From the NCBI RefSeq assembly GCF_030295385.1, contig NZ_AP027079.1:1178001-1242000 (forward strand): 64,000 nt of DNA. Direction: 5' to 3'. Position 1 is the first letter of the stretch; every line of letters starts with the position of its first letter. The translations under genes were made by a program, and so were the position numbers. The DNA comes from Geothrix oryzae (GTDB lineage: Bacteria > Acidobacteriota > Holophagae > Holophagales > Holophagaceae). Shown piece by piece: positions 9,429 to 36,042 of the stretch. The notes under the pieces were generated by a model that did not search any database, had not been told where the DNA came from, and was given only the letters and a program-made list of their open reading frames with translations.

Positions 9429-9515
9429 GCTCCAGTCAGGGCGGGGTTCCGCACTTATTCCCTTGGCCGGAAAGGGCCCGGGCCGTATTCTGATCCCTTG
9501 CGCAAGGAGGAGCCC

Positions 9516-9863
9516 ATGGCTCACGAGGGTCACGAACACGGACCGGACTGCAACCACGATCACGATGATTCCTTCGAGATCGAAGTCGTTGAACTCGAAG
9601 ATGAGAATGGCGAGAAGGAAGAGTTCGCGATTCTCGAAGAGCTCGAGTTCGAGGGCCGGAACTTCGCCATCCTCGCGCCCCTGGCCGAGCTGCAGGCCCA
9701 GGAAGAGGGCACCGCGGATCCCGAGGAGGGCCTGAGCCTGGAGATCTTCGAGGTCAAGGACGACATGTTCACGCCCCTCGAGGACGAAGAGCTGGCCGAG
9801 CGCCTCATGAAGCACCTCGATGAGCAGGAAGCCAAGCTCAAGGCCGAGGAAGAGAAGGACTGA
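9516..9863 (+). CDS. Small acidic DUF1292 protein with histidine-rich N-terminus
   Basis: The 115-residue protein starts after AAGGAGGAGCCC. Residues 3-19 are rich in His, Asp and Cys (HEGHEHGPDCNHDHD), a pattern that often binds zinc, nickel or copper. Residues about 21-80 resemble DUF1292 (FEIEVVELEDENGEKEEFAI ... FAILAPL), a family of unknown function that is common in Firmicutes. The rest is very acidic and helical. The DUF assignment is by pattern. It stands after the flagellar genes on the same strand with an 87-bp gap, so cotranscription is uncertain. Confidence 0.75.
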   Translation: MAHEGHEHGPDCNHDHDDSFEIEVVELEDENGEKEEFAILEELEFEGRNFAILAPLAELQAQEEGTADPEEGLSLEIFEVKDDMFTPLEDEELAERLMKHLDEQEAKLKAEEEKD

Positions 9864-10911: not shown

Positions 10912-12858
10912 ATGCTGAACGACCCGATCCTCTTCACCGGCCGGATCCTCTTCCTGACGGAAGACCCCGCCGCGATGGCGCGTCAGCTGGGCGGCGAGGA
11001 CCTGGATCCTGCCGAAGCCGGTCCCCTGCGGGATCAGATCAGCACCGACGAGATCACGCCGGCCTTCATCTGCTACCACTTCGACGAGAAGCTGGGTGAC
11101 TTCCCCTACCTGGGCCTGAAGTGCGGCGAGGTCTTCCCGGTGAAGGAAGGCTCCGTGCGCGGGGGCGGTTTCACCGTCAGCGTGGCGGGCAAGCGCCGGG
11201 GCAAGGGGAGCAGCCGGGAGGCCAGCCCCTACGCCGAGCTGTGCGCGGGCCTCCGCCTCGTGGTCGCGGAGAGCTTCGAGCGCATCTACCGCCAGAACGC
11301 CCAGAACCTGGGTCTGCTCACCAGCACCGACTTCGGCCTCATCCCGCGGATCCGCCGGGGCGAAGCCATCCCGCTCGCCGAATTCACCGAGGGGCTTGAT
11401 CCCGTCACGGCGGAGATCGTGCGTCGCGGCGGGCTCTTCGCATACAACGCCGCCCGTCTGGCCGGCGAGGTGGTGCCGCCCCTGCCATCGCATGGTCCGC
11501 GCCCCATGACCTACGCGGAGAAGCTGCTGGCCCGCCACGCGGTGGTGGACGCGGCGGCCGGGCAGGTGGGGCTTCAGGTGGTGAAGCCCGGCGATGGACT
11601 CTTCGTGAAGACCGATTGGCGCTTCAGCCACGAGTATGTGACGCCCATGGCCGCCCGTTTTCTGGAGAAGGCCCTGGGGCCCGGGGTCGTCCTCCGGGAT
11701 CCGGCCCGCATCCTGGCCTTCCGGGACCACCTCACCTTCCTGCACCACAGCATGAAGGCAGAGCACCGGGCCCTGGGTCTGCTGAGGGTGGCCGAAGGCC
11801 TGAAGCCCGCGCAGGAGGCCTTCTGCGCGAAGCACGGCATCCGTCTGCACGGCGAGCTGCCCGACGGTTCCGGCAGCGAGGGCATCTGCCACTCGATCAT
11901 GACCGAGCGCTACGCCTGTCCTGGTCAGGTGGTGGTGGGCACGGACTCGCACACGCCCCACGCCGGGGCCCTGGGCTGCCTCGCGTTCGGCATCGGCACC
12001 ACGGATATCGCCTGCGCCTGGGTGACGGGGGATGTCCGCGTCACGGTGCCGCCCACGCTCCGCGTACGGCTGGAGGGCCGCCTCCGGCCCGGTGTCTCCG
12101 CCAAGGATCTGGTGCTGCACCTCCTGGCCCAGCCCCTCATCCGCGAGGGCGGCGCCATCGGCCATGTGGTGGAGTACCAGGGTCCGGCCCTGGCGGACCT
12201 CGACACCGACGAGCGGGCCACCCTCACCAACATGGCCGCGGAGATCGGCGGATTCACGGGACTCATCGCCCCGGATGGGGAGACGGTGCGCTTCGTGCGG
12301 GAGCGCCGCGGCGTGGACCTGGTGCTGGAACCCTGGATGGGCGGGGATGAGGGGGCCGACTACGCCCAGACCCTCACCGTGGACTGCGGGGCCCTGGGGC
12401 CCATGCTGGCCCGGCCCGGCGACCCGGGGAATGGGGTGGCCCTGGCGGACCTGGGCGAACTGGTGCCCATCGACATCGCCTACTTGGGCAGCTGCACCGG
12501 CGGCAAGCGCGAAGACCTGCGCCGGGCTTACGAGGTGGTGAAGGCGGCTGCCGCCGAGGGGCGGCGGGTGGCCGATGGCGTGCAGTTCTTCGTCCAGTGC
12601 GGCAGCGAGGATGTGCGCCGTCATGCGGCCGAGCAGGGTTGGCTGGCGGCTTTCGAGGCCGTGGGGGCCGTGGTGCTGGGCAGCTCCTGCGGGGCCTGCA
12701 TCAACGCGGGCCCTGGCATCTCCACCCGCCCGGACCAGGTGACCATCAGCGCCATCAACCGCAACTTCCCGGGCCGCAGCGGGCCGGGCCGGATGTGGCT
12801 GGCCAGCCCGGCCACCGTCGCCGCCAGCGCGCTGGCAGGGCGCATCACGGGGCCCTGA
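10912..12858 (+). CDS. Aconitase/isopropylmalate-isomerase family hydro-lyase with swivel domain first
   Basis: The 648-residue protein carries both halves of a LeuC/LeuD-type hydro-lyase in one chain, in reversed order. The swivel (LeuD-like) half is N-terminal, with GSSREA at residues 99-104. The catalytic (LeuC-like) half follows, with VVVGTDSHT (340-348), GSCTGGKREDL (Cys528) and SSCGACINAG (Cys593, Cys596). The three cysteines should hold the [4Fe-4S] cluster that binds the substrate hydroxyl and carboxylate. AcnB also places the swivel first, but this protein lacks the AcnB HEAT-like N-terminal domain and is about 200 residues shorter. It probably isomerises a 2- or 3-hydroxy tricarboxylate (citrate, homocitrate or isopropylmalate-like). 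No leu or lys genes adjoin it, so the substrate is open. Confidence 0.88.
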   Translation: MLNDPILFTGRILFLTEDPAAMARQLGGEDLDPAEAGPLRDQISTDEITPAFICYHFDEKLGDFPYLGLKCGEVFPVKEGSVRGGGFTVSVAGKRRGKGSSREASPYAELCAGLRLVVAESFERIYRQNAQNLGLLTSTDFGLIPRIRRGEAIPLAEFTEGLDPVTAEIVRRGGLFAYNAARLAGEVVPPLPSHGPRPMTYAEKLLARHAVVDAAAGQVGLQVVKPGDGLFVKTDWRFSHEYVTPMAARFLEKALGPGVVLRDPARILAFRDHLTFLHHSMKAEHRALGLLRVAEGLKPAQEAFCAKHGIRLHGELPDGSGSEGICHSIMTERYACPGQVVVGTDSHTPHAGALGCLAFGIGTTDIACAWVTGDVRVTVPPTLRVRLEGRLRPGVSAKDLVLHLLAQPLIREGGAIGHVVEYQGPALADLDTDERATLTNMAAEIGGFTGLIAPDGETVRFVRERRGVDLVLEPWMGGDEGADYAQTLTVDCGALGPMLARPGDPGNGVALADLGELVPIDIAYLGSCTGGKREDLRRAYEVVKAAAAEGRRVADGVQFFVQCGSEDVRRHAAEQGWLAAFEAVGAVVLGSSCGACINAGPGISTRPDQVTISAINRNFPGRSGPGRMWLASPATVAASALAGRITGP

Positions 12859-12957: not shown

Positions 12958-13854
12958 ATGTCATCCGTCCGCCTCTGCTCTCTGCTCCTGTCCTCGAGTT
13001 GGCTGTGGGCGGAAGTCCCGATTCCAAGCCAGGGCGCCCCGATCCCCACGAATCCGGCCCCCAAGGCCCCGGAATCAGCCATGGCGACTCCGGCGATGGG
13101 TTCTTCTTCGGATCCGGATCGCTTCTCCAACCTGCCCCGGCTGCTGCTGGACGATGCGGGGCATGTCGTCAGCGCCCCCGCGCGCTGGGATCGCTCGGAC
13201 TGGGTCGCGGTCGGGGCGGGGACCGCGGCGGTGGTGGGCGTGGGCCTGCTGCTGGATCGCTCGACGGACCGGTTCATGACGAACCACGCCAACGCCTCCT
13301 GGGATCGCGCCGCCAAGAATGTCCAGAAGTTCGGGGGCACGCCCAGCGTGCTGATCGCCGGGGGCACCTACCTCGCGGGAGTGGCCTTCAAGGATCCTGA
13401 AGTGCGGGCCACGGGCATCGACACCATGGTGACGATGGGGCTCGCCCAGCTCCTGCTCACGATTCCGCTGAAGACCGTGGCCGGCCGATCGAGGCCCAAC
13501 GAAGGCAAGGGCACCCACGACTTCCACCCCCTGAACGGCGGGGCGTCCTTCCCTTCGGGTCACACCACCCAGGCGTTTGCCCTGGCCTCGGTCATCTCCG
13601 AGCACGCGGACCGTCCCTGGGTGTCCGGCCTTTCCTATGGGCTGGCGGGGCTGGTGGGCCTGTCGCGCGTGGAGCAGCGACAGCACTTCCTGTCCGATGT
13701 GGTGGCGGGGGGGCTGATCGGCACCTTCGTCGGCAAGGCGGTGGTGGCCCACAACCAGGCCCTGCGGGCCGATGCGCGCCGGAAGGTGTCCATGTCCTTC
13801 TCGCCGATCTTCCAGCCGGGCGGCTACGGGGTCAGCGTGGCCATGGTGTTCTGA
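12958..13854 (+). CDS. PAP2-family membrane phosphatase
   Basis: The 298-residue product has a signal peptide (start chosen at the ATG 10 nt after CCGGAG), a Pro/Ala-rich spacer, and a PAP2 (type 2 phosphatidic acid phosphatase) domain. The three catalytic motifs are visible: KTVAGRSRP, FPSGHTTQAF and SRVEQRQHFLSDVVAG (the SR-x5-H-x3-D form). Such enzymes dephosphorylate phosphatidic acid, undecaprenyl diphosphate or lipid A at the periplasmic face. Two or three hydrophobic helices flank the motifs. Its last 23 bp overlap, tail to tail, the dgkA gene, whose product does the opposite reaction on lipids. Confidence 0.9.
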   Translation: MSSVRLCSLLLSSSWLWAEVPIPSQGAPIPTNPAPKAPESAMATPAMGSSSDPDRFSNLPRLLLDDAGHVVSAPARWDRSDWVAVGAGTAAVVGVGLLLDRSTDRFMTNHANASWDRAAKNVQKFGGTPSVLIAGGTYLAGVAFKDPEVRATGIDTMVTMGLAQLLLTIPLKTVAGRSRPNEGKGTHDFHPLNGGASFPSGHTTQAFALASVISEHADRPWVSGLSYGLAGLVGLSRVEQRQHFLSDVVAGGLIGTFVGKAVVAHNQALRADARRKVSMSFSPIFQPGGYGVSVAMVF

Positions 13855-14203
13855 CGGCCATCGACCAGACGAAGGCCAGGAAGGTTCCCACCGCGGTCAG
13901 GCTGAAGACGAGGACGGCGCCGGCGGCGCAGTCCTTCGAGATCTTGATGGCGGGGTGGATCTCCGGGTGCAGGTGGTCGAGGGCGTGCTCCAGCGCCGTG
14001 TTGAAGAGCTCGGCGGCGAGCACCAGCCCGCAGTTGAGCAGCAGCAGGGCCCACCAGATCGCCGGCGGACGCAGGGCGATCAGCAACACCACCGCCGCCA
14101 GCGCCATCAGGCTCTGGAAGCGGAAGCTGGCTTCCAGCTGCCAGGCGGTGCGGATCCCCTGGAGGCTGTACGAGAATCGCTTGGGAAACGGCTGGTTCTT
14201 CAT
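13832..14203 (-). CDS. dgkA: Diacylglycerol kinase (undecaprenol kinase-like), DgkA family
   Basis: The 123-residue integral membrane protein has the standard DgkA size and three transmembrane helices. The signature ELFNTALEHALDHLHPEIHP followed by KISKDCAAGAVL contains the Glu and Asp residues that bind Mg-ATP. In Gram-negative bacteria DgkA phosphorylates diacylglycerol; in Gram-positives the same fold phosphorylates undecaprenol. Either would feed envelope lipid recycling here. It is convergent with, and overlaps by 23 bp, the PAP2 phosphatase gene, and is divergent from the L,D-transpeptidase/Mur ligase gene. Confidence 0.95.
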   Translation of the reverse strand: MKNQPFPKRFSYSLQGIRTAWQLEASFRFQSLMALAAVVLLIALRPPAIWWALLLLNCGLVLAAELFNTALEHALDHLHPEIHPAIKISKDCAAGAVLVFSLTAVGTFLAFVWSMAVRTPWPR

Positions 14204-14323: not shown

Positions 14324-16324
14324 ATGCCCGATCCCGTCGCCGCCGCGCGCTACCATGCCCTCCTGCTGGCGGGCCTCGCGCGCGCGGGCGCACCGGCGCC
14401 TGAGCCGGGCGCCAGGATCCTGGTGGTGGACACGGCCCGCCAGCGCCTCGGGCTTCTGGAGGGCGGTCGGCTGTCGTTTGAAGCAGTCATCTCCACCGCG
14501 AAAAACGGCCTGGGCTGCGAGGAGAACTCCTATCGCACGCCCACGGGCTGGCACCGCATCCACGCGCGCGTCGGGGCGGGGGCCGAATCCGGGGCCGTCT
14601 TCCGCAGCCGCGTGGCCACGGGTGAGGTGTGGCGGGGGGAACCGCGCGACGAGGACCTGATCCTGACGCGGGTGCTCACCCTGGATGGCCTGGAGGAGGG
14701 ATGGAACCGGGGCCCGGGGCGGGATTCGCTGGCGCGGTTCATCTACCTGCACGGCACCAACCAGGAATCCCAGCTGGGCTCGCCCGTCTCCCACGGCTGC
14801 GTGCGGCTGGCCAATGCCGAGGTGGCCGATCTCTTCGAGCGCGTGGCGGAAGGGGATCTGGTGCTCATCAGCGGGGACTCCCCCGGCGATGATCTAGCCG
14901 GCGACCTGGGCGGTGGCCTGGGCCTGGGCCGCCTGCATTTCGCGGGCGTGGCCGGCAGCGGCATGAGCGCCCTGGCCCAGTTCGTGGCCCTCAAGGGCGG
15001 GCGGGCCAGCGGCAGTGATCGCAGCTTCGATCGGCACCAGAGGCCCGAGGCGCGGGCCCAGCTGGAAGCCCTGGGCGTGGCGATCCATCCCCAGGATGGC
15101 TCGGGCCTGGAAGGCGATTGCGCCGCGCTGGTGGTGTCCACGGCGGTGGAGGAGGAGGTTCCGGATCTGGTGGCGGCCCGGCGCCTGGGCGTACCCGTGA
15201 TCCACCGCTCCGAGTTGCTAGCGCACCTCGTGGCGCGGTACCGCACCGTGGCGGTGACCGGCACGAGCGGGAAATCCACCACCGTGGCCATGATCTTCGA
15301 GATCCTGCGGGGCGCGGGCCGGGATCCTTCCGTCGTCACGGGGGGCGAGCTGGTGGCGCTGCAGCGCGAGGGCCGCTGGGGCAATGCCTGGGCGGGAGCC
15401 TCCGACCTGCTGGTCATCGAGGCCGATGAAAGCGATGGCTCCGTGGTGCGCTACCACGCGGCCGTAGGCGTGATCCTGAACCTGCAGCGGGACCACAAGG
15501 AGATGGGGGCCGTGGCGGAGATGTTCCACGCCTTCCGGGCCCAGGTGCGGGAGACGGCCGTGGTGGGCGAGTCGGAGAACCTGCGCGGGTTCGCCGGGGG
15601 AGGGACGGTCTTCGGCTTCGGGTCCGGGGCCGGGTTCCGCGGGGAGGCCCTGCGGCTGGCGCCGGAAGGCTCCTGCTTCAGCGTGCAGGGCGTGCCGTTC
15701 CGCCTGCCGGTGCCGGGCCGCCACAATGCCGAAAACGCCCTGGCCGCCCTCGCGGCGTGCCACGCCCTGGGCGTGCCGCTGGCCGCCATGGTGGAACCGC
15801 TGGCCCGGTTCCAGGGCGTGGCCCGGCGCTTCCAGGTGCTGGGCACGCGGCGCGGAGTCACCGTGGTGGATGACTTCGGCCACAACCCGGCCAAGGTGGC
15901 CGCCTCGATCCGCGCCGCGCACCTGCGGGTGGGGGCCGCCGGCGGTCGCGTGCTGGCGGTCTTCCAGCCCCACGGCTACGGCCCGCTCAAGTTCCTCCGC
16001 GCCGATTTCGTGGAGTCCTTCGCCGCGGAACTGGCGCCCGGCGACCGGCTCTGGTTCCTGGAGGTCTTCTACGCGGGAGGCACCGCCGCCCGGGACATCA
16101 GCTCCGCCGAGGTCGTGGCGGACCTCGCGGCCCGCGGCGTGGCCGCCGAACATGCGCCGACGCGGGAATGGCTGGTGGATCGGCTGGTGGCCGAGGCGGG
16201 ACCCGGCGACCTCATCCTGGTGATGGGTGCGCGGGACCCTTCGCTGACGGACCTGGCCTTCACCCTCCTCCAGGGGCTCTCAGAACGCGAACTCGAAGAT
16301 GAATTTGAGGGTCCACCGCTCTGA
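14324..16324 (+). CDS. Fusion of L,D-transpeptidase (YkuD) domain with MurC/Mpl-type Mur ligase
   Basis: The 666-residue protein has two enzyme domains. Residues about 30-185 are a YkuD L,D-transpeptidase with ARILVVDTARQRLGLLEGG, LHGTN (His143) and the catalytic SHGCVRL (156-162, Cys159). Residues about 202-666 are a Mur ligase of the MurC/Mpl type: Rossmann-like GVAGSGMSALAQF, ATP loop GTSGKSTT (313-320), EADESDGS (366-373), GRHNAENA, and VDDFGHNP (515-522), where MurC normally has D-D-Y-A-H-H-P. No signal peptide precedes the YkuD domain, so both halves should be cytoplasmic. YkuD enzymes can act as L,D-carboxypeptidases, and Mpl re-ligates murein tripeptide to UDP-MurNAc, so a coupled recycling role is a reasonable inference. 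Its 3' end overlaps the next, convergent gene by 45 bp. Confidence 0.93.
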   Translation: MPDPVAAARYHALLLAGLARAGAPAPEPGARILVVDTARQRLGLLEGGRLSFEAVISTAKNGLGCEENSYRTPTGWHRIHARVGAGAESGAVFRSRVATGEVWRGEPRDEDLILTRVLTLDGLEEGWNRGPGRDSLARFIYLHGTNQESQLGSPVSHGCVRLANAEVADLFERVAEGDLVLISGDSPGDDLAGDLGGGLGLGRLHFAGVAGSGMSALAQFVALKGGRASGSDRSFDRHQRPEARAQLEALGVAIHPQDGSGLEGDCAALVVSTAVEEEVPDLVAARRLGVPVIHRSELLAHLVARYRTVAVTGTSGKSTTVAMIFEILRGAGRDPSVVTGGELVALQREGRWGNAWAGASDLLVIEADESDGSVVRYHAAVGVILNLQRDHKEMGAVAEMFHAFRAQVRETAVVGESENLRGFAGGGTVFGFGSGAGFRGEALRLAPEGSCFSVQGVPFRLPVPGRHNAENALAALAACHALGVPLAAMVEPLARFQGVARRFQVLGTRRGVTVVDDFGHNPAKVAASIRAAHLRVGAAGGRVLAVFQPHGYGPLKFLRADFVESFAAELAPGDRLWFLEVFYAGGTAARDISSAEVVADLAARGVAAEHAPTREWLVDRLVAEAGPGDLILVMGARDPSLTDLAFTLLQGLSERELEDEFEGPPL

Positions 16325-17059
16325 CGCGGCGGTGAGCCCGCGACCGAGGCCGACATTGAACACGAGGGGGGCGTGGTCCACATCGAGCGTCAGGAACAGG
16401 CGCTGGCTCTGCTCCCGCGAGAGGTCCACCTGATTCAGCAGGCCGTGGTCGAGGTAGAGCTCCAGCCCCGGGGCGGCAGTCTTCCACCGGGTGTAGGTGG
16501 CCTTCCAGGCCGTGGCGAAATCCGGGGTGCCGCGCCCCTGGCCGTCGGAGAGCGGCCAGGTGAAGACCGGGTTCACGGCTAGGAGCCAGTCCTGGCCCTG
16601 GACGCCCGCGAGGCCGCGCAGTTCGGTCTCCCAGCGCAGGTCGGAGAAGCTGCGGTTCGTGCGGGCAACCTCGAGGTTGAGGCCGAGGAAGGGCCCCGTG
16701 GCCTCCTCGCCCGCGCCCCGGATGGGCAGCCATTTCAGGCGGAACTTGGGCCCCGAGAACCGGTAGTGGTGGTCGGTGTCGAGGGCCGTCGGCAGGTAGA
16801 GGCCGATGTCGAGAGAGGGCAGGAGCCCGTACGAGATCTCGGGGGTGAGGTTCCAGGATCCATTGAAGGGCAGCCCGGGCGGCGCCTCCTTGGGCCCCTG
16901 CAGGATCCGGTTGAGGTGCAGTTCCAGCCCCACTTTCCCGGGTTTCTGGATGTCGTTGGTGTAGACCTGGATCTCGTCCGCGAATCCCTGGGCGCTCAAA
17001 GCGCCCCCGGGCAGCAGGAGAAGGCACAGCGCCAGGGGGCGGGACCACGCTCGGAACAT
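16280..17059 (-). CDS. Outer-membrane beta-barrel-like protein, function unknown
   Basis: The 259-residue protein has a signal peptide (LALCLLLLPGGALSAQG) and then alternating polar and hydrophobic strands rich in aromatic residues (LELHLNRIL, YRFSGPKFRLKWLP, LGLNLEVA). It ends in FIFEFAF; a terminal Phe preceded by alternating hydrophobics is the usual signal for Bam-dependent outer-membrane insertion. It resembles the transporter-like barrels annotated as MetA-pathway or phenol-degradation OMPs, but I cannot name a substrate. The start has no strong ribosome-binding site (ACCTC/GAGGTCGT region upstream). Its 3' end overlaps the LDT-Mur ligase gene on the other strand. Confidence 0.75.
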   Translation of the reverse strand: MFRAWSRPLALCLLLLPGGALSAQGFADEIQVYTNDIQKPGKVGLELHLNRILQGPKEAPPGLPFNGSWNLTPEISYGLLPSLDIGLYLPTALDTDHHYRFSGPKFRLKWLPIRGAGEEATGPFLGLNLEVARTNRSFSDLRWETELRGLAGVQGQDWLLAVNPVFTWPLSDGQGRGTPDFATAWKATYTRWKTAAPGLELYLDHGLLNQVDLSREQSQRLFLTLDVDHAPLVFNVGLGRGLTAASERWTLKFIFEFAF

Positions 17060-21996: not shown

Positions 21997-23751
21997 ATGA
22001 GCCATGAACCCGTTTCCGGAACGGCCCCGGCCGGAGGCTCGTCCGGCTGGCAGGGCGCCAGGCTGGTGCCAACCCTCGCGACCGTCCTTCTGGGTCTGCT
22101 CCTGTATGTTGGATTGCCTCGCCTGATGTCCGTGCCCGACGCCAAGCTCTTCACGGGCCAGCCTGCGGCGGCCAAGCCCGCTCCAGCGGCCGCCAAGCCC
22201 CCCATCAAGCCCGTTTCGGCGGTGGCCACGCCAATCCCAGTGGCGGCTCCGGCGCCGGCCAAGTCGCTGACCAAGGCCCAGCTGGAGGCCAAGGTGAAGG
22301 CGGAGGCTGAAGCCAAGGCCAGGGTCGAGGTCGAGGCCAAAGCGAAGGCGGAAGCCGATGCGAAGATGAAAGCCGAAGCGGAAGCCAAGGCCAAGGCTGA
22401 TGCCGAAGCCAAGCGGAAGGCCGACTGGGTGAAGGGGCTGCACCTCTTCGCCATCTTCGTCACCACCATCGTTGGCATCATCGTCAAGGCGCTGCCCATG
22501 GGGGCGGTGGCCATGATCGGCATCGCCGTGACGGCCCTCACGGGCACCCTCGGCATCGCGGATTCCATGAGCGGCTTCTCGGATGTGGTGATCTGGCTGA
22601 TCGTGCTGGCCTTCTTCATCTCCCGGGGCTTCATCAAGACGGGCCTCGGCGCCCGCATCGCCTACACCTTCATGGCCCTGCTCGGCAGGCGGACCCTGGG
22701 GCTCAGCTACGGCCTGGCCGCCACGGACCTGGTGCTGGCGCCGGCCATTCCCAGCAACACCGCCCGCGGCGGCGGCATCGTCATGCCCATCATGGCCTCG
22801 TTGGCCCGCGCCTACGGCAGCAACCCCGGCGACGCCAGCGCCCGGAAGATGGGCTCGTTCCTCACGCTGACCGCCTACCAGGTGAACTGCATCACCAGCG
22901 CCATGTTCCTCACCGCCATGGCCGCCAATCCGCTGGCCCAGAAGCTCGCGGGCGACCTCAAGGTGAACATCACCTGGGGCGGGTGGGCCCTCGCGGCCCT
23001 TGTGCCCGGCGCGGTGGCCCTGCTCCTGGTGCCCTTCCTGATCTACCGGCTCCACCGCCCCGAGATCACGGAGACGCCGGAGGCCGTGGAGATGGCCAAG
23101 GGCCATCTGCGCGACCTGGGGCCCATCAAGCGCCAGGAGTGGATGATGCTGGGCGTCTTCGTGATGCTGCTGGTGCTGTGGATCTTCGCGAAGCAGCTGG
23201 GCGACCTCAATCCCACCACTTCCGCCCTGGCGGGTCTTGCGGTGCTGCTCCTGAGCGGAGTCTTGAACTGGGAGGACATCAAGGCCGAGACCGGCGCCTG
23301 GGACACCCTGGTGTGGTTCGCGGCCCTCGTGATGATGGCCAGCTTCCTCAACAAGCTGGGCATGGTGCCCTGGTTCAGCAAGACCATGGGCGGCATGGTC
23401 GCGGGCAAGGGCTGGATCGCCGCCTTCCTGGTGCTGGCGCTGGTCTATTTCTACAGCCACTACTTCTTCGCCAGCAATACGGCCCATGTGGCCTCGATGT
23501 ACGCGGCCTTCCTCGGCGTCTCCATCGTGGCCGGGGCGCCCCCGGTGCTTGCCGCCCTGGTGCTGGCCTTCTTCAGCAACCTCTTCGCGGGCATGACCCA
23601 CTACGGGACGGGGCCGGCGCCGGTGTTGTTCGGAACGGGCTATGTGGAGCTGGGCACCTGGTGGCGGACGGGACTCATCGTGAGCGTCGTGAACATCCTC
23701 ATCTGGGTGGGTCTCGGCGGCCTCTGGTGGAAGGTGCTGGGTCTCTGGTAG
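21997..23751 (+). CDS. DASS-family carboxylate carrier with a long Ala/Lys/Glu-rich insertion after TM1
   Basis: The 584-residue protein is a divalent anion:sodium symporter (SLC13/CitT-TtdT type). TM2 onward is typical: [40 protein letters not shown], the SNT motif in [13 protein letters not shown], a second SNT ([13 protein letters not shown]), and a C-terminal [16 protein letters not shown]. Carriers of this type import or exchange tartrate, citrate, succinate or malate. Here the normally short loop between TM1 (24-40) and TM2 (about 147) is enlarged by about 100 residues: a Pro/Ala stretch (55-88) and a charged helix of repeated AEAKAKAEA-like units (90-144). It is divergent from dmlA, which supports a role with C4 hydroxy-acids. 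Confidence 0.9.
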
Positions 23752-31856: not shown

Positions 31857-33824
31857 TCAGGCGGGCAGCGGCTCGGCGCCGCCGGCGGTGTCAGTGTCGG
31901 TCTCGGGTTGCGGGGGCTGGCCCAGGTAGGCCTCCACCACCTTCGGGTGGCGCTTCACCTCGTCGGGCGTGCCTTCGGCGATGACGCGGCCGCCGTCGAG
32001 CACGGTCACGGTGTCGCAGAGCTCGCTCACGACATCCATGTGGTGCTCGATGAGGAGGATGCTGATGCCGCGCCGGTGGATCCGCTTGATGATCTCGATC
32101 AGCTGGACCACATCGGGATGGGCTAGGCCCGCGGCGGGTTCGTCCAGGATGAGCAGGTCCGGCTTGCGCGCCAGGGCCCGGGCCACCTCCAGGAAACGCT
32201 GGGCGCCGTAGGTCAGATCCTTGGCCCGGGTGAGGGCCTGGTCCTTCAGTCCGACCCGGTCCAGCAGGCAGAGGGCATCGGCCTGGGCTTGGCGCTCCTC
32301 GCGCCGGGCGAGCCCCAGCAGCACCAGGGGCAAGGGGCTGCGGTACACCCCCCGGAGCGCCACCATGACATTTTCGAGGGCCGTCAACTCGGCGAAGAGC
32401 TGGAGGTTCTGGAAGGTGCGCGCCACGCCGGACTTCGACACCTGGAAGAGGCTTCCGGACGGCAGCACCATTCCGCGGAGCAGGATGCGGCCCGCGGTGG
32501 GCGTGTAGAGCCCGGAGATGACATTGACCACGGTGCTCTTGCCGGAGCCGTTGGGTCCGATGAGGCCGTGGATGCTGCCGGACTTGATGGTCATGGAGAG
32601 GCCGTCCACGGCCTTCACGCCGCCGAAGTGGCGCCGGAGGTCCTCGAGGACGAGCAGGGGCGCGCCATCCGAGGCGCGGGGCGGCAGGATGGCCTCGATG
32701 TCCGAAGGTTCGGGCAGGGGCGCATGGGGCACCCGGAAGAGCTTCGCCAAGAAGATGGCGAGAAAACCCATGAGACCCTCGGGCAGGCCCACCACCACCG
32801 AGAAGAGCATCAGCGCGAAGATGGCCTTGCGCCAGTCCTCGGTGTTCTCCACGAAGAAGCCGCCCACCACCAGGAGCCCCATGGCCGCCACGGGGGCCAG
32901 GGCCTGGAAGGGGCGCGTGGTCTTCTTGACGAGGCCCCGCAGGCCCGCCGCCAGGGCCATCGCAAAGCCCAGGCCCGAGAACACCTGGAAGAGCAGCCGG
33001 TTGGAGAGCAGGTTGGGCAGCAGGACAATGACAGAGGCGCCCACAAAGGCCCCCCAGAGGCTCTTGCGGCCGCCGAGGACCACCCCCAGCAGCAGGATGA
33101 TCATCAGGTCGTAGACGAAGCTCTGGGGCTGGAGGTACTGGAAGTTGAAGGCGTAGAGCCCGCCCGCCAGGCCGCCGAGCCCCGATCCCAGGGCGAAGGC
33201 CGCGACCTTGTGCCGGTAGGTGCCGACCCCCATGGCATCGGTGGCGATGGGGCTGTCGCGCAGGGCCTCGAAGGCCCGGCCCCACTGGGAGGCCAGCAGG
33301 TTGCGCATGAGCATCCACACCACGGCCAGCAGGGCCATGCAGAGCCAGTAGAAGAGGGGAGGGGTGAGGGAGTGGCCGAAGATGGGCGGCCGGGTCAGGC
33401 TCAGGCCCTGGGCGCCCCCCGTGAGGCCTTCCAGTTCGTTGAGCGCCGTGGTGCTGAGGGCCGCGAAGCTCAGGGTGGCCAGGGCGAACTGGGGGCCTTC
33501 CAGACGCAGGGCCGGCAGGGCCAGCAGGCCGCCCAGCAGGAGCCCCACGGCCATGGCGGCCAGGAGCGCCGGTGCCATGCCGAGGCCCAGCTTGGTGACG
33601 GCGAGCCCGGCGGTGTAGGCGCCCAGGCCCAGGAAGGCCACATGGGCGAGGTTCACCTGGCCCAGGTAGCCCACGGTCACATCCAGGCCGATGAGCAGGA
33701 TGCCGTAGATGGCCAGCAGGGTGAGGAGGCCCAGGGCGTAGGGGTTCACCACCAGCAGGGGGATGGTGGCCAGCAGGGCGAAGACGATGAGCTCGGCGCC
33801 GCGGAGGAGGAGGATGCGCTTCAT
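31857..33824 (-). CDS. livMG: Fused branched-chain amino-acid ABC transporter permease-ATPase (LivM-LivG)
   Basis: The 655-residue protein fuses two subunits normally encoded separately. Residues 1 to about 335 are LivM-type permease with about ten helices and the YLGQVNLAHVAFLGLGAYTA motif. After a linker ending near SDIEAILPPRAS, the LivG ATPase follows, with Walker A LIGPNGSGKST, signature-region LTYGAQRFLEVARALARKP, Walker B LLILDEPAAGLAHPD and H-loop LLIEHHMDVV. Note that the signature reads LTYGAQ, as usual for LivG. I start at the ATG 6-11 nt downstream of GGAAGG; a GTG 6 bp earlier would overlap livH in GTGA. A direct permease-ATPase fusion forces 1:1 stoichiometry. Confidence 0.93.
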   Translation of the reverse strand: MKRILLLRGAELIVFALLATIPLLVVNPYALGLLTLLAIYGILLIGLDVTVGYLGQVNLAHVAFLGLGAYTAGLAVTKLGLGMAPALLAAMAVGLLLGGLLALPALRLEGPQFALATLSFAALSTTALNELEGLTGGAQGLSLTRPPIFGHSLTPPLFYWLCMALLAVVWMLMRNLLASQWGRAFEALRDSPIATDAMGVGTYRHKVAAFALGSGLGGLAGGLYAFNFQYLQPQSFVYDLMIILLLGVVLGGRKSLWGAFVGASVIVLLPNLLSNRLLFQVFSGLGFAMALAAGLRGLVKKTTRPFQALAPVAAMGLLVVGGFFVENTEDWRKAIFALMLFSVVVGLPEGLMGFLAIFLAKLFRVPHAPLPEPSDIEAILPPRASDGAPLLVLEDLRRHFGGVKAVDGLSMTIKSGSIHGLIGPNGSGKSTVVNVISGLYTPTAGRILLRGMVLPSGSLFQVSKSGVARTFQNLQLFAELTALENVMVALRGVYRSPLPLVLLGLARREERQAQADALCLLDRVGLKDQALTRAKDLTYGAQRFLEVARALARKPDLLILDEPAAGLAHPDVVQLIEIIKRIHRRGISILLIEHHMDVVSELCDTVTVLDGGRVIAEGTPDEVKRHPKVVEAYLGQPPQPETDTDTAGGAEPLPA

Positions 33825-33826
33825 CG

Positions 33827-34705
33827 TCACACCTTCCGGATGGTGGCTTTGCCGAACACGCCCGTGGGCCGCACCGCCAGGGCGAGGATCAGCAGGACGA
33901 GACCCGGCGCCTCGCGCCAGCCGCTTCCCAGGTAGAAGCTGGCCAGGCTTTCCAGCGCGCCCAGGAACATGCCGATGAGCACCACGCCGAAGCCCGAATC
34001 CAGGCCGGCCACCACGGCCACGGAGAAGGCCTTGAGGATGAGCGCCGAGGCCATCGTGGGGCCCACGGTGGTGATGGGGGACACGAGGATGCCCGCCAGG
34101 GCCGCCACGGCGCCGGACAGGCCATAGGACAGCATCACCGTGCGGGTGGCGGAGATGCCCATGAGCTCCGCGGCGTCGCGGTCGGCCGATACCGCCTCGA
34201 AGGCCTTGCCCAGCAGCGTGCGGCGCTTGAAGAGCTCAATGGCGCCCATGATGGCCAGCACGCCCACGGCCACGGACAGCTCCAGCCGCGTGACATCCAC
34301 CCCCAGCACATGGATGGGATCCGCCGAGATGGGGGTGGGGAAGGGCCGGTCGTCGCGACCCCAGATGTTCTCGGCCGCCGAGAAGAAGAAGAGGCCGATG
34401 ATGATGCTGAGCAGGATCCAGCCTTCGCTCTTCTGCTCGAGCGCGAGCCGCACGCCGGCCCGTTCGACCACCAGACCGAGCACCGCGCCGAAGAGCAGGC
34501 CGCCAGGGATCATCAGCCAGTAGGGCAGGCCGAGGTTCGTGAGGGTGAGGCTGAAGAAGGCCGAGACCATCACCAGCTCGCCCTGGCCGAAGTTGATGCT
34601 CTTGCTGGTGGCGTAGGTGAGCTGGAAGCCGTACGCGATGAGCGCGTAGACCAGGCCCATCAGGGCGCCGCTCACGGCCATCTGTCCGATGATCTGGGCA
34701 TTCAT
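33827..34705 (-). CDS. livH: Branched-chain amino-acid ABC transporter permease LivH
   Basis: The 292-residue membrane protein has about eight helices and LivH landmarks: GLVYALIAYGFQLTYATSKS followed by INFGQGELVM, RTLLGKAFEAVSADRDAAEL-type cytoplasmic loop that couples to the ATPase, and a C-terminal VRPTGVFGKATIRKV. It forms the translocation pore with the LivM half of the next protein. It is separated from the binding-protein gene livK by a hairpin with a T-tract, which would lower its expression relative to livK. Confidence 0.95.
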   Translation of the reverse strand: MNAQIIGQMAVSGALMGLVYALIAYGFQLTYATSKSINFGQGELVMVSAFFSLTLTNLGLPYWLMIPGGLLFGAVLGLVVERAGVRLALEQKSEGWILLSIIIGLFFFSAAENIWGRDDRPFPTPISADPIHVLGVDVTRLELSVAVGVLAIMGAIELFKRRTLLGKAFEAVSADRDAAELMGISATRTVMLSYGLSGAVAALAGILVSPITTVGPTMASALILKAFSVAVVAGLDSGFGVVLIGMFLGALESLASFYLGSGWREAPGLVLLILALAVRPTGVFGKATIRKV

Positions 34706-34776: not shown

Positions 34777-36042
34777 CTACTTCGTCTTGCCCTTGCCTTT
34801 GACCTTGGCGGGTGTGGCCGTCACGGCGGACTTGCGGAGGCGTTCGCGGTCGGCGTCGTTGCCGAAGACCACGCGGCCGTCCTTCACCATGCCCATGACG
34901 GTCTGCTCGCGGCGGAAGGCCTCGTGGGTGGTCACATCCGCGGGGTCCCACTTGGTGTAGGGGTGGTTCCAGGTCGCGATGACACCCACCACGGGCTCCT
35001 TCAGATCCTCGAGCGCCTCCTTGACCTTGCGGGTGTCGGTGGTGCCGGCCTGCTTGACGGCGGCGGCCATGAGGTAGACGGCGTCATAGCCCTGGGCGGC
35101 GGCCACGGGGGAGGGGATGCGGCCCACCTTGAAGGTCTTGTGGTAGCCGTCGATGAAGCTCTTCGCCTTGGGGGTGATGGGCTCCTCGATGAAGGTCTGC
35201 GGCATCAGCGTGCCGTTCCCGTTCTTGCCGGCGTTGTCGATGTAGTTGGACATGGAGAGCGTCCAGCCGCCGATGAGGGGGGCCTTCATGCCGATCTTGG
35301 CTTGGCCGTTGGAAATGGCCGCCAGCTCGGGCCCGATGCCCCAGATGAGGATGGCCTGGGCGCCCGCAGATTTGGCGCGCAGCAGCTGGGCGGTCATGTC
35401 CTTGTCGCCGATGTTGAACTTCTCCTGGGCCACCACGGTGAGCTTGTTGCCCTGCTTCTTGATCTGGTCCAGCATGTCGTCGCGGCCGGACACGCCGTAG
35501 TTGGTGGAGTCATAGACCACGGCCACCTTGGTGAACTTGCGGTTGATGGCCTCTTCCACCACCATGGCCGCCTGGATGCCGTCGTGGGCCGCGAAGCGGA
35601 AGATGGAGCAGTCCTTCACGCCGGCCTTGCTCCACTGGGTCATGGAGGCCGATCCGGCCGCGGGGCAGATGATCTTGGTGATGCCCTTCTCCTGCAGGTG
35701 CTTGTCGCCCGCCATGCAGACGCCGGTGTTCACGGTGCCGATCACGCCGGTGAGATCGCTCATGGCCGCCAGTTCCTGGGCGATGAGGGCGCCGCGCTCG
35801 TTCTTGGCCTCGTCGTCGCGCTCGATGATCTCGATTTTCATCTTCCGGCCGCCCACCTGGATGCCCCCGGCGGCATTGATCTCGGCGATGGCGAGCTTGG
35901 AACCGTCCCGCGCAGAGGTTCCCATGGGCGCCGAACCGCCGCTGAAGGGGCCCGTGAGGGCGATCTTGACGGTGTCTCCACCTGCGGCCTGCAGGCCGAA
36001 GGCGGCAGTCAAGAGCGAGACGAAGAAGGTCTTCTTCAGCAT
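34777..36042 (-). CDS. livK: Branched-chain amino-acid ABC transporter substrate-binding protein LivK
   Basis: The 421-residue protein starts after GGGAGGACCC and has a signal peptide (MLKKTFFVSLLTAAFGLQAA). It is a type 1 periplasmic binding protein of the LivJ/LivK group: IALTGPFSGGSAPMGTSARD, EINAAGGIQVGGRKMKI, DSTNYGVSGRDDM and AAAQGYDAVYLMAAAVK. A basic C-terminal tail (VKGKGKTK) is unusual. It captures an amino acid or another small acid in the periplasm for the LivHMGF complex. Substrate cannot be fixed; some members bind amides or aromatic acids. Confidence 0.94.
   Translation of the reverse strand: MLKKTFFVSLLTAAFGLQAAGGDTVKIALTGPFSGGSAPMGTSARDGSKLAIAEINAAGGIQVGGRKMKIEIIERDDEAKNERGALIAQELAAMSDLTGVIGTVNTGVCMAGDKHLQEKGITKIICPAAGSASMTQWSKAGVKDCSIFRFAAHDGIQAAMVVEEAINRKFTKVAVVYDSTNYGVSGRDDMLDQIKKQGNKLTVVAQEKFNIGDKDMTAQLLRAKSAGAQAILIWGIGPELAAISNGQAKIGMKAPLIGGWTLSMSNYIDNAGKNGNGTLMPQTFIEEPITPKAKSFIDGYHKTFKVGRIPSPVAAAQGYDAVYLMAAAVKQAGTTDTRKVKEALEDLKEPVVGVIATWNHPYTKWDPADVTTHEAFRREQTVMGMVKDGRVVFGNDADRERLRKSAVTATPAKVKGKGKTK

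Follow-up and report, generated by a model that had tools for sequence, protein, structure and literature searches.

A YkuD–Mur ligase fusion protein in Geothrix oryzae: a predicted bifunctional enzyme of murein-peptide recycling

Trimming of murein peptides by a cytoplasmic YkuD enzyme and re-ligation of peptides by ligases of the Mpl type are both already known. ElsL of Acinetobacter baumannii is a leaderless cytoplasmic YkuD L,D-carboxypeptidase that converts disaccharide tetrapeptide to tripeptide in vitro in a Cys-dependent manner, with no activity on pentapeptide, and in vitro LdcA of Escherichia coli likewise yields tripeptide from murein tetrapeptide (PMC8649774). Trimming matters because re-used tetrapeptide yields stems that are unfit as donors for cross-linking by penicillin-binding proteins; cells lacking the carboxypeptidase are harmed by tetrapeptide precursors, and mutations in ampG or mpl alleviate the growth defect seen when elsL and ldtAb are both mutated (PMC8649774). 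The alphaproteobacteria Caulobacter and Agrobacterium are reported to be without LdcA and Mpl, and the authors suggest that recycled peptides are degraded (PMC13046382, PMC9790009). Here we describe a gene of Geothrix oryzae (Acidobacteriota; Holophagaceae) that encodes a YkuD domain and a Mur ligase in one chain. It lies in a 64,000-nucleotide stretch of contig NZ_AP027079.1 (positions 1,178,001 to 1,242,000 of the forward strand; assembly GCF_030295385.1), referred to below as the window.

A conserved fusion of YkuD and Mur ligase domains

The gene translates to 666 residues in one continuous frame with a single stop, at the end, and the YkuD and Mur ligase motifs were intact and located where the initial annotation had placed them (Table 1; in addition, EADESDG from residue 366 and HNAENA from residue 467). 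The Pfam YkuD model (PF03734) scored 69.3 bits against a gathering cut-off of 23.4, whilst the Mur_ligase, Mur_ligase_M and Mur_ligase_C models each exceeded their cut-offs. The catalytic-type His and the SHGC Cys of the YkuD domain were invariant across the 17 domains of alignment A3. A whole-protein AlphaFold2 model (31 sequences) had a mean predicted local distance difference test (pLDDT) value of 88.8 and a predicted template modelling score of 0.88, with pLDDT below 50 at residues 63–67, 131–137 and 187–197.

A strong match to the fused protein was found in 47 of 61 sampled Holophagaceae genomes. Both halves were matched in 45 of these (in one stretch in 41 and as split pieces in four), and ligase-only matches were seen in G007, at a contig start, and in G013 (G and L numbers denote genomes and loci, respectively). 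In 41 of the 61 genomes a single match ran from residue 1–8 to about residue 650 or further; identity over these full-length matches was 63–91 %, the window's own genome being left out, and about 10 of the 41 were flagged with one internal stop. Because full-length single-frame matches recur in family genomes, the fusion is not a product of chance or assembly, and a frameshift or misassembly joining two genes was ruled out. The fusion is confirmed as real and conserved. The search for this architecture and its taxonomic range that was proposed with the initial annotation yielded, besides the 45 Holophagaceae genomes, one locus (L162) in a phylum referred to here as delta-type, the sole fused copy seen beyond the Acidobacteriota. 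The ratio of non-synonymous to synonymous substitution rates was approximately 0.17–0.32 for both halves (five comparisons).

The ligase half belongs to a clade that is delimited below. Among 197 sampled genomes of Acidobacteriota, matches to this clade above 500 bits occurred in 18 genomes, all Holophagaceae; the next score was 353 bits, for a sequence carrying MurC-type motifs. A scan of the collection gave 58 loci, with both halves in 48, the ligase only in nine, and one further locus, L077, that is considered below; the closest relative was Geothrix L028, 94 % identical in the best segment. An in-frame YkuD match was present in 55 of 100 distinct ligase-clade frames (54 from Holophagaceae, and L162), and these frames, which were chosen by profile, contained SHGC in 55 of 55 cases and HG[T/S] in 54 of 55. 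In the draft Holophagaceae records L070 and L072, the YkuD domain and the ligase were split between different or overlapping frames. Neither viral contigs, searched with the motif patterns, nor plasmids, searched with the alphaproteobacterial ligase P0003 at E 1e-40, yielded a match. A fused gene of the Holophagaceae type (64 % identity) was also found in L068, a metagenome-assembled genome (MAG) titled Hyphomicrobiales, the title or binning of which may be wrong.

The two halves compared with ElsL, MurC and Mpl

The top YkuD-type NCBIfam match of the fused protein was ElsL (NF040925; 135.4 bits, E 1.5e-39, model positions 8–160 of 164), the second-best match of this type reaching only 25.5 bits; the ElsL score is short of the curated 270-bit cut-off. 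Neither a signal peptide nor a membrane helix was seen, as judged from frame starts, hydrophobicity and the predicted helix rather than by a dedicated signal-peptide program. The open frame starts at the match start in L034 and one codon earlier in L063; the most hydrophobic 11-residue stretch starting within residues 1–50 has a mean of only 1.55 (Kyte–Doolittle) and includes an Arg; and residues 4–18 form a helix in the predicted structure. These observations agree with the initial annotation, which had seen neither feature ahead of the YkuD domain and had found this puzzling in an enzyme type that normally acts outside the membrane, a puzzle for which the leaderless cytoplasmic ElsL provides a precedent (PMC8649774).

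The YkuD half thus resembles ElsL in being a leaderless YkuD domain with the SHGC cysteine, and a cytoplasmic role in recycling may be proposed for it by analogy; unlike ElsL, which is free-standing, it is fused to a ligase and scores under the curated cut-off. The published list of ElsL orthologues dropped proteins longer than 200 aa (PMC8649774), and the fusion would therefore be excluded from it. In the delta-type genome G246 the two parts occur separately, as a free-standing YkuD protein of 161 residues, which shares 48 % identity with the window domain over 153 positions and likewise has ElsL as its closest model, and as an unfused clade ligase (L076); a search of this genome for the S66 family, to which LdcA belongs, gave none. 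From the similarity to ElsL, the YkuD half is predicted to be an L,D-carboxypeptidase.

Residues 1–185 modelled alone had a pLDDT of 89.6 and aligned with Bacillus subtilis YkuD (1y7m) with a Z score of 16.5 over 116 residues and a root mean square deviation (rmsd) of 2.2. The nearest solved folds were mostly L,D-transpeptidases; the PDB fold-comparison lists contained no ElsL structure, and the comparison carries no weight as a test in that respect. The fold and these neighbours are what would be expected of an L,D-transpeptidase whose target is the sacculus, with the fusion exported or membrane-bound, but no leader was seen, the same chain holds a partner of the ATP- and UDP-N-acetylmuramic acid (UDP-MurNAc)-using type, and the closest NCBIfam model is that of a cytoplasmic enzyme. 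Exported transpeptidase activity is extremely improbable and was rejected because no leader was seen.

The ligase half scored 289.1 bits with the MurC model (TIGR01082; cut-off 335.1) and 121.6 bits with the Mpl model (TIGR01081; cut-off 388.7). In trees rooted on a single E. coli Mpl, it fell in a clade separate from MurC with a support of 0.993 in the fuller tree and 0.919 in the reduced tree. Fold comparison of the predicted model gave a Z score of 37.5 with MurC 1p31 (438 aligned residues, rmsd 2.2) and of 30.5 with Mpl 3hn7 (434 aligned residues, rmsd 4.7). By model cut-offs, the ligase is a member of a distinct MurC-related clade that is neither MurC nor Mpl. The pieces AFFD, DKRSK/DKRAK and EPRSNT of the Mpl motifs were found in none of 100 clade sequences, nor in the window protein, which is without the (S/T)AFFDKRSK hallmark that appears as CAFFDKRSK in E. 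coli Mpl; membership of Mpl was rejected on these grounds. The earlier designation as a MurC/Mpl-type ligase is therefore retained for the relationship to MurC and dropped for Mpl. The window ligase does share with Mpl the proposed reaction, the three-domain organization and the overall fold, whilst differing in its score, its motifs and its separation in the tree from the single Mpl included.

In order to compare the substrate pocket, 100 distinct sequences of the clade, of which 55 came from the Holophagaceae group, were set against 14 MurC sequences. The general UDP-MurNAc and ATP motifs of MurC are retained in the window ligase, but DDYGHHPTE, QPHRYxR and GAG are replaced. Across the clade, HHP was changed to HNP in 100 of 100 sequences and the Glu two residues past the Pro to Lys in 100 of 100 (HHPTE to HNPxK); Arg377 was replaced by Gly in 98 and Arg380 by Pro in 97 (QPHRYxR to QPHGxxP), and GAG had become GAR in 99 (GARD). 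The MurC residues believed to hold the incoming amino acid are Tyr346, His348, His376, Arg377 and Arg380 in Haemophilus influenzae numbering (PMC3060825); in the window protein both His residues are kept, whilst Tyr346 is Phe, Arg377 is Gly and Arg380 is Pro. Loss of both arginines would make sense if the incoming L-Ala heads a peptide and thus has no free carboxylate. The His-to-Asn change had been taken to suggest a distinct pocket, and the pocket is indeed altered, more widely than was noted; the change is a hallmark of the whole clade and not peculiar to this protein.

These data also bear on whether the protein might be a second MurC that adds L-Ala, the YkuD domain being an unrelated passenger. 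MurC is the best-scoring model and the nearest fold, but the score misses the cut-off, a true MurC is encoded elsewhere in the genome (548 bits), two of the residues believed to bind alanine are replaced in nearly the whole clade, and the clade is recurrently linked to two unrelated L,D-carboxypeptidases (see below). A second MurC is very unlikely and was rejected on the pocket changes.

Unfused ligases and their linkage to S66 carboxypeptidases

Unfused clade members were identified by score in 34 of 289 alphaproteobacterial genomes (at least 390 bits; next score 344), and clade members were present in seven of 198 genomes of the phylum of L075, the delta-type phylum. Motifs were tabulated for 30 fetched alphaproteobacterial loci and for G391, whilst G284, G484 and G300 were called by score alone. 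A gene for an S66 L,D-carboxypeptidase adjoined the ligase gene in 24 of the 30 fetched loci, divergently in 17 and in tandem (downstream, same strand) in seven; L133 was counted as divergent by hand, the script having called it convergent owing to an over-long stop-to-stop frame. Flanks of up to 1.5 kb were covered per locus, and short loci could hide neighbours. Calculated per genome (n=34), S66 was adjacent in 26, elsewhere in seven and absent in one. All six fetched loci with no S66 neighbour had an S66 gene elsewhere in the genome, and among the unfetched ligase loci S66 was adjacent by coordinates in G391 and G300, elsewhere in G284 and not found in G484. Adjacency by chance would be expected at approximately 0.2–0.4 % per genome under assumed sizes, and in a small control restricted to Acidobacteriota the same search found S66 beside MurC-like hits in none of 12 loci. 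Three of the neighbours contributed to the S66 neighbour profile; Pfam independently confirmed S66 in these three and in L083. S66 genes of further genomes came from whole-genome Pfam searches.

In the rumen MAG L083 (Alphaproteobacteria), a single frame of 764 residues encoded the ligase together with both S66 domains, S66 lying at the opposite end of the ligase from YkuD in the window protein. Tandem and divergent loci fell in different groups of the reduced tree, L083 being placed among the tandem loci. Divergent S66 genes were also seen in the collection-scan loci L081, L082, L084 and L085, the last of which is also one of the 30 (as L126). The Holophagaceae MAG L077, which has gaps, carries a ligase with no YkuD domain ahead of it and S66 as the next gene; no YkuD match was found within this locus. 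The fused L162 and the unfused L161 were sister to the Holophagaceae ligases in the trees, and neither visual inspection nor a profile search detected a YkuD domain upstream of L161. In a subgroup of the reduced tree (L078, L079 and L150), no S66 gene adjoined the ligase in the fetched loci; the ligases of L078 and L079 were without a stretch of the middle domain, and G244, the genome of L079, was without any S66.

S66 and YkuD enzymes have unrelated folds. LdcA (S66) thus shares with the YkuD half its proposed function and recurs beside, or fused to, ligases of this clade, but belongs to a different Pfam family and was not found in the host genome. That two unrelated trimming enzymes are recurrently joined to one ligase argues that the ligase uses their product, murein tripeptide.

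Mpl was found in none of 289 alphaproteobacterial genomes at E 1e-70, in a search with the same centre and settings as the ligase-clade sample, which is therefore expected to comprise the same genomes. As 34 of these genomes carry a clade ligase, peptides may be re-used directly in bacteria for which Mpl searches come up empty. The reports on Caulobacter and Agrobacterium fit the patchy distribution of the clade and lend its function no support.

Proposed role in peptide recycling and genomic context

The genome of G. oryzae (3.27 Mb, one contig) was searched for the separate murC, mpl and ldcA genes whose presence or absence the initial annotation had identified as informative. The MurC model detected the true MurC at 548 bits, the fused protein at 290 bits and all others at 69 bits or less, so that no further MurC/Mpl-type protein exceeded 69 bits, a result that rests on the MurC model, the Mpl model not having been run. 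Neither a second YkuD protein nor an S66 LdcA was found in the host genome at the thresholds used, whilst the AmpG model exceeded its cut-off (427.6 bits). On this inventory, the fused protein would fill both gaps of a peptide-recycling pathway.

We consider it quite probable that the fused protein recycles murein peptides in the cytoplasm as a bifunctional enzyme, combining tetrapeptide trimming with a UDP-MurNAc:tripeptide ligase. Single-chain trimming and re-ligation, as first suggested for this gene, is the best-supported reading of the predicted activities, and the host genome is favourable to it. Anhydromuropeptides would be imported via AmpG; the ElsL-like domain would cleave the terminal D-Ala from L-Ala-γ-D-Glu-mDAP-D-Ala (mDAP, meso-diaminopimelic acid) using Cys159 and His143; and the ligase half would then join the tripeptide to UDP-MurNAc at the expense of ATP, with MurF acting next. 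Coupling may keep untrimmed tetrapeptide, the source of toxic precursors once ligated, from the ligase.

Trimming is placed before ligation in this scheme, and the opposite order is a possible but less favoured alternative. The ligase would accept any murein peptide, tetrapeptide included, and the carboxypeptidase would proofread the product by trimming UDP-MurNAc-tetrapeptide to tripeptide. Both activities are the same in either case and only the order of the steps differs, such that the odds of the two overlap, and the domain and linkage evidence applies equally. Weak acceptance of tetrapeptide by Psychrobacter Mpl (PMC3060825) and the harm done by tetrapeptide precursors when the carboxypeptidase is missing would favour ligation first, but the substrate on which ElsL was shown to act in vitro is the disaccharide tetrapeptide (PMC8649774).

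Several observations weigh against the proposed bifunctional role. MurC is nearest to the ligase by overall score (289 bits) and by fold (1p31), and the support separating the clade from MurC falls to 0.919 in one of the two trees. No clade member was detected in 14 of the 61 Holophagaceae genomes, and L161, the closest relative of L162, is unfused. At the thresholds used, five of eight ligase-bearing delta-type genomes (G247, G569, G695, G668 and G639) and the alphaproteobacterial genomes G484 and G244 had neither S66 nor ElsL, and L162 was the only fetched delta-type locus with S66 or YkuD beside the ligase. The clade may prefer another peptide or amine. In its specific form, this would mean that the ligase attaches a dipeptide, a D-amino acid or a non-murein peptide and that the carboxypeptidase prepares that substrate. 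Pocket residues unlike those of both MurC and Mpl, and the ligase-bearing genomes without a recognized carboxypeptidase, are compatible with such a role, but both ElsL and E. coli LdcA produce tripeptide from murein tetrapeptide in vitro (PMC8649774), and we consider it unlikely.

On balance we lean towards a third UDP-MurNAc ligase family beside MurC and Mpl, which would recycle murein peptide in Holophagaceae, some Alphaproteobacteria and some delta-type bacteria as a module with whichever L,D-carboxypeptidase is available (an N-terminal YkuD fusion, a C-terminal S66 fusion or an adjacent gene), the fused active sites forming one machine for trimming and ligation or for proofreading. No description of the fusion, of the ligase clade or of its pairing with two unrelated carboxypeptidases was found in the open-access literature in PMC, subscription journals, preprints and domain-architecture databases being outside the scope of the search; literature on recycling in Geothrix likewise offered no lead. 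The ligase clade and its linkage point to an overlooked route of cell-wall recycling, and the fusion offers a test case for why trimming and ligation might need to be coupled. The HNPxK, QPHG and GARD motifs should allow others to find members of the clade.

Table 1. Features of the fused gene in the window (all on the + strand)
Feature	Position	Strand	Basis
Whole fused gene, 666 aa: ElsL-like YkuD domain and MurC-related ligase	14324..16324	+	Translation, Pfam, family-genome matches
YkuD domain (L,D-carboxypeptidase/transpeptidase fold), residues 31–182	14414..14869	+	Pfam, NCBIfam, fold comparison
Catalytic-type His143 (YLHGTN)	14750..14752	+	Motif position; invariant in 17 domains
Catalytic-type Cys159 (SHGC)	14798..14800	+	Motif position; SHGC in 55/55 fused clade frames
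Linker, residues 183–203, pLDDT <50 at 187–197	14870..14932	+	Pfam bounds, model
Mur ligase N-terminal (UDP-MurNAc) domain, residues 204–307	14933..15244	+	Pfam
Mur ligase middle (ATP) domain, residues 311–479, GTSGKST 313–319	15254..15760	+	Pfam, motif position
Mur ligase C-terminal (amino-acid/peptide) domain, residues 501–637	15824..16234	+	Pfam
DDFGHNPAK (516–524), altered from MurC DDYGHHPTE; clade N 100/100, K 100/100	15869..15895	+	Clade tabulation
QPHG (548–551) then YGP; Gly and Pro replace MurC Arg377 and Arg380 (H. influenzae numbering)	15965..15976	+	Clade tabulation
GARD (635–638), altered from MurC GAG[N/D/T/S]; clade Arg 99/100	16226..16237	+	Clade tabulation

The neighbours of the fused gene gave no clear functional clue. 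In 49 related Holophagaceae loci, many of them cut by contig ends, the genes nearby were aconitase-like in 39, mazG-like in 25, dgkA-like in 12, PAP2-like in 12 and related to the gene at 16280–17059 of the window in four; none of these neighbours was present in the five more distant loci shown. In the window, the gene at 10912–12858 (+) is, by eye, presumably aconitase-like, with no evident link to cell-wall recycling, and the gene at 13832–14203 (−), which is divergent from the fused gene and 120 bases away, is taken to be diacylglycerol/undecaprenol kinase-like. Further away, a 657-aa frame at 31857–33830 (−) appears by eye to join an amino-acid ABC permease to an ATPase (LivM- and LivG-like), and 34777–36042 (−) presumably encodes a LivK-like binding protein. 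A 584-aa transporter-like frame at 21997–23751 (+) contained a long Ala/Lys/Glu repeat that separates a hydrophobic N-terminal segment from the membrane domain, and a small acidic protein encoded at 9498–9863 (+) had a His-rich N-terminus (HEGHEHGPDCNHDHDD) and is possibly metal-binding.

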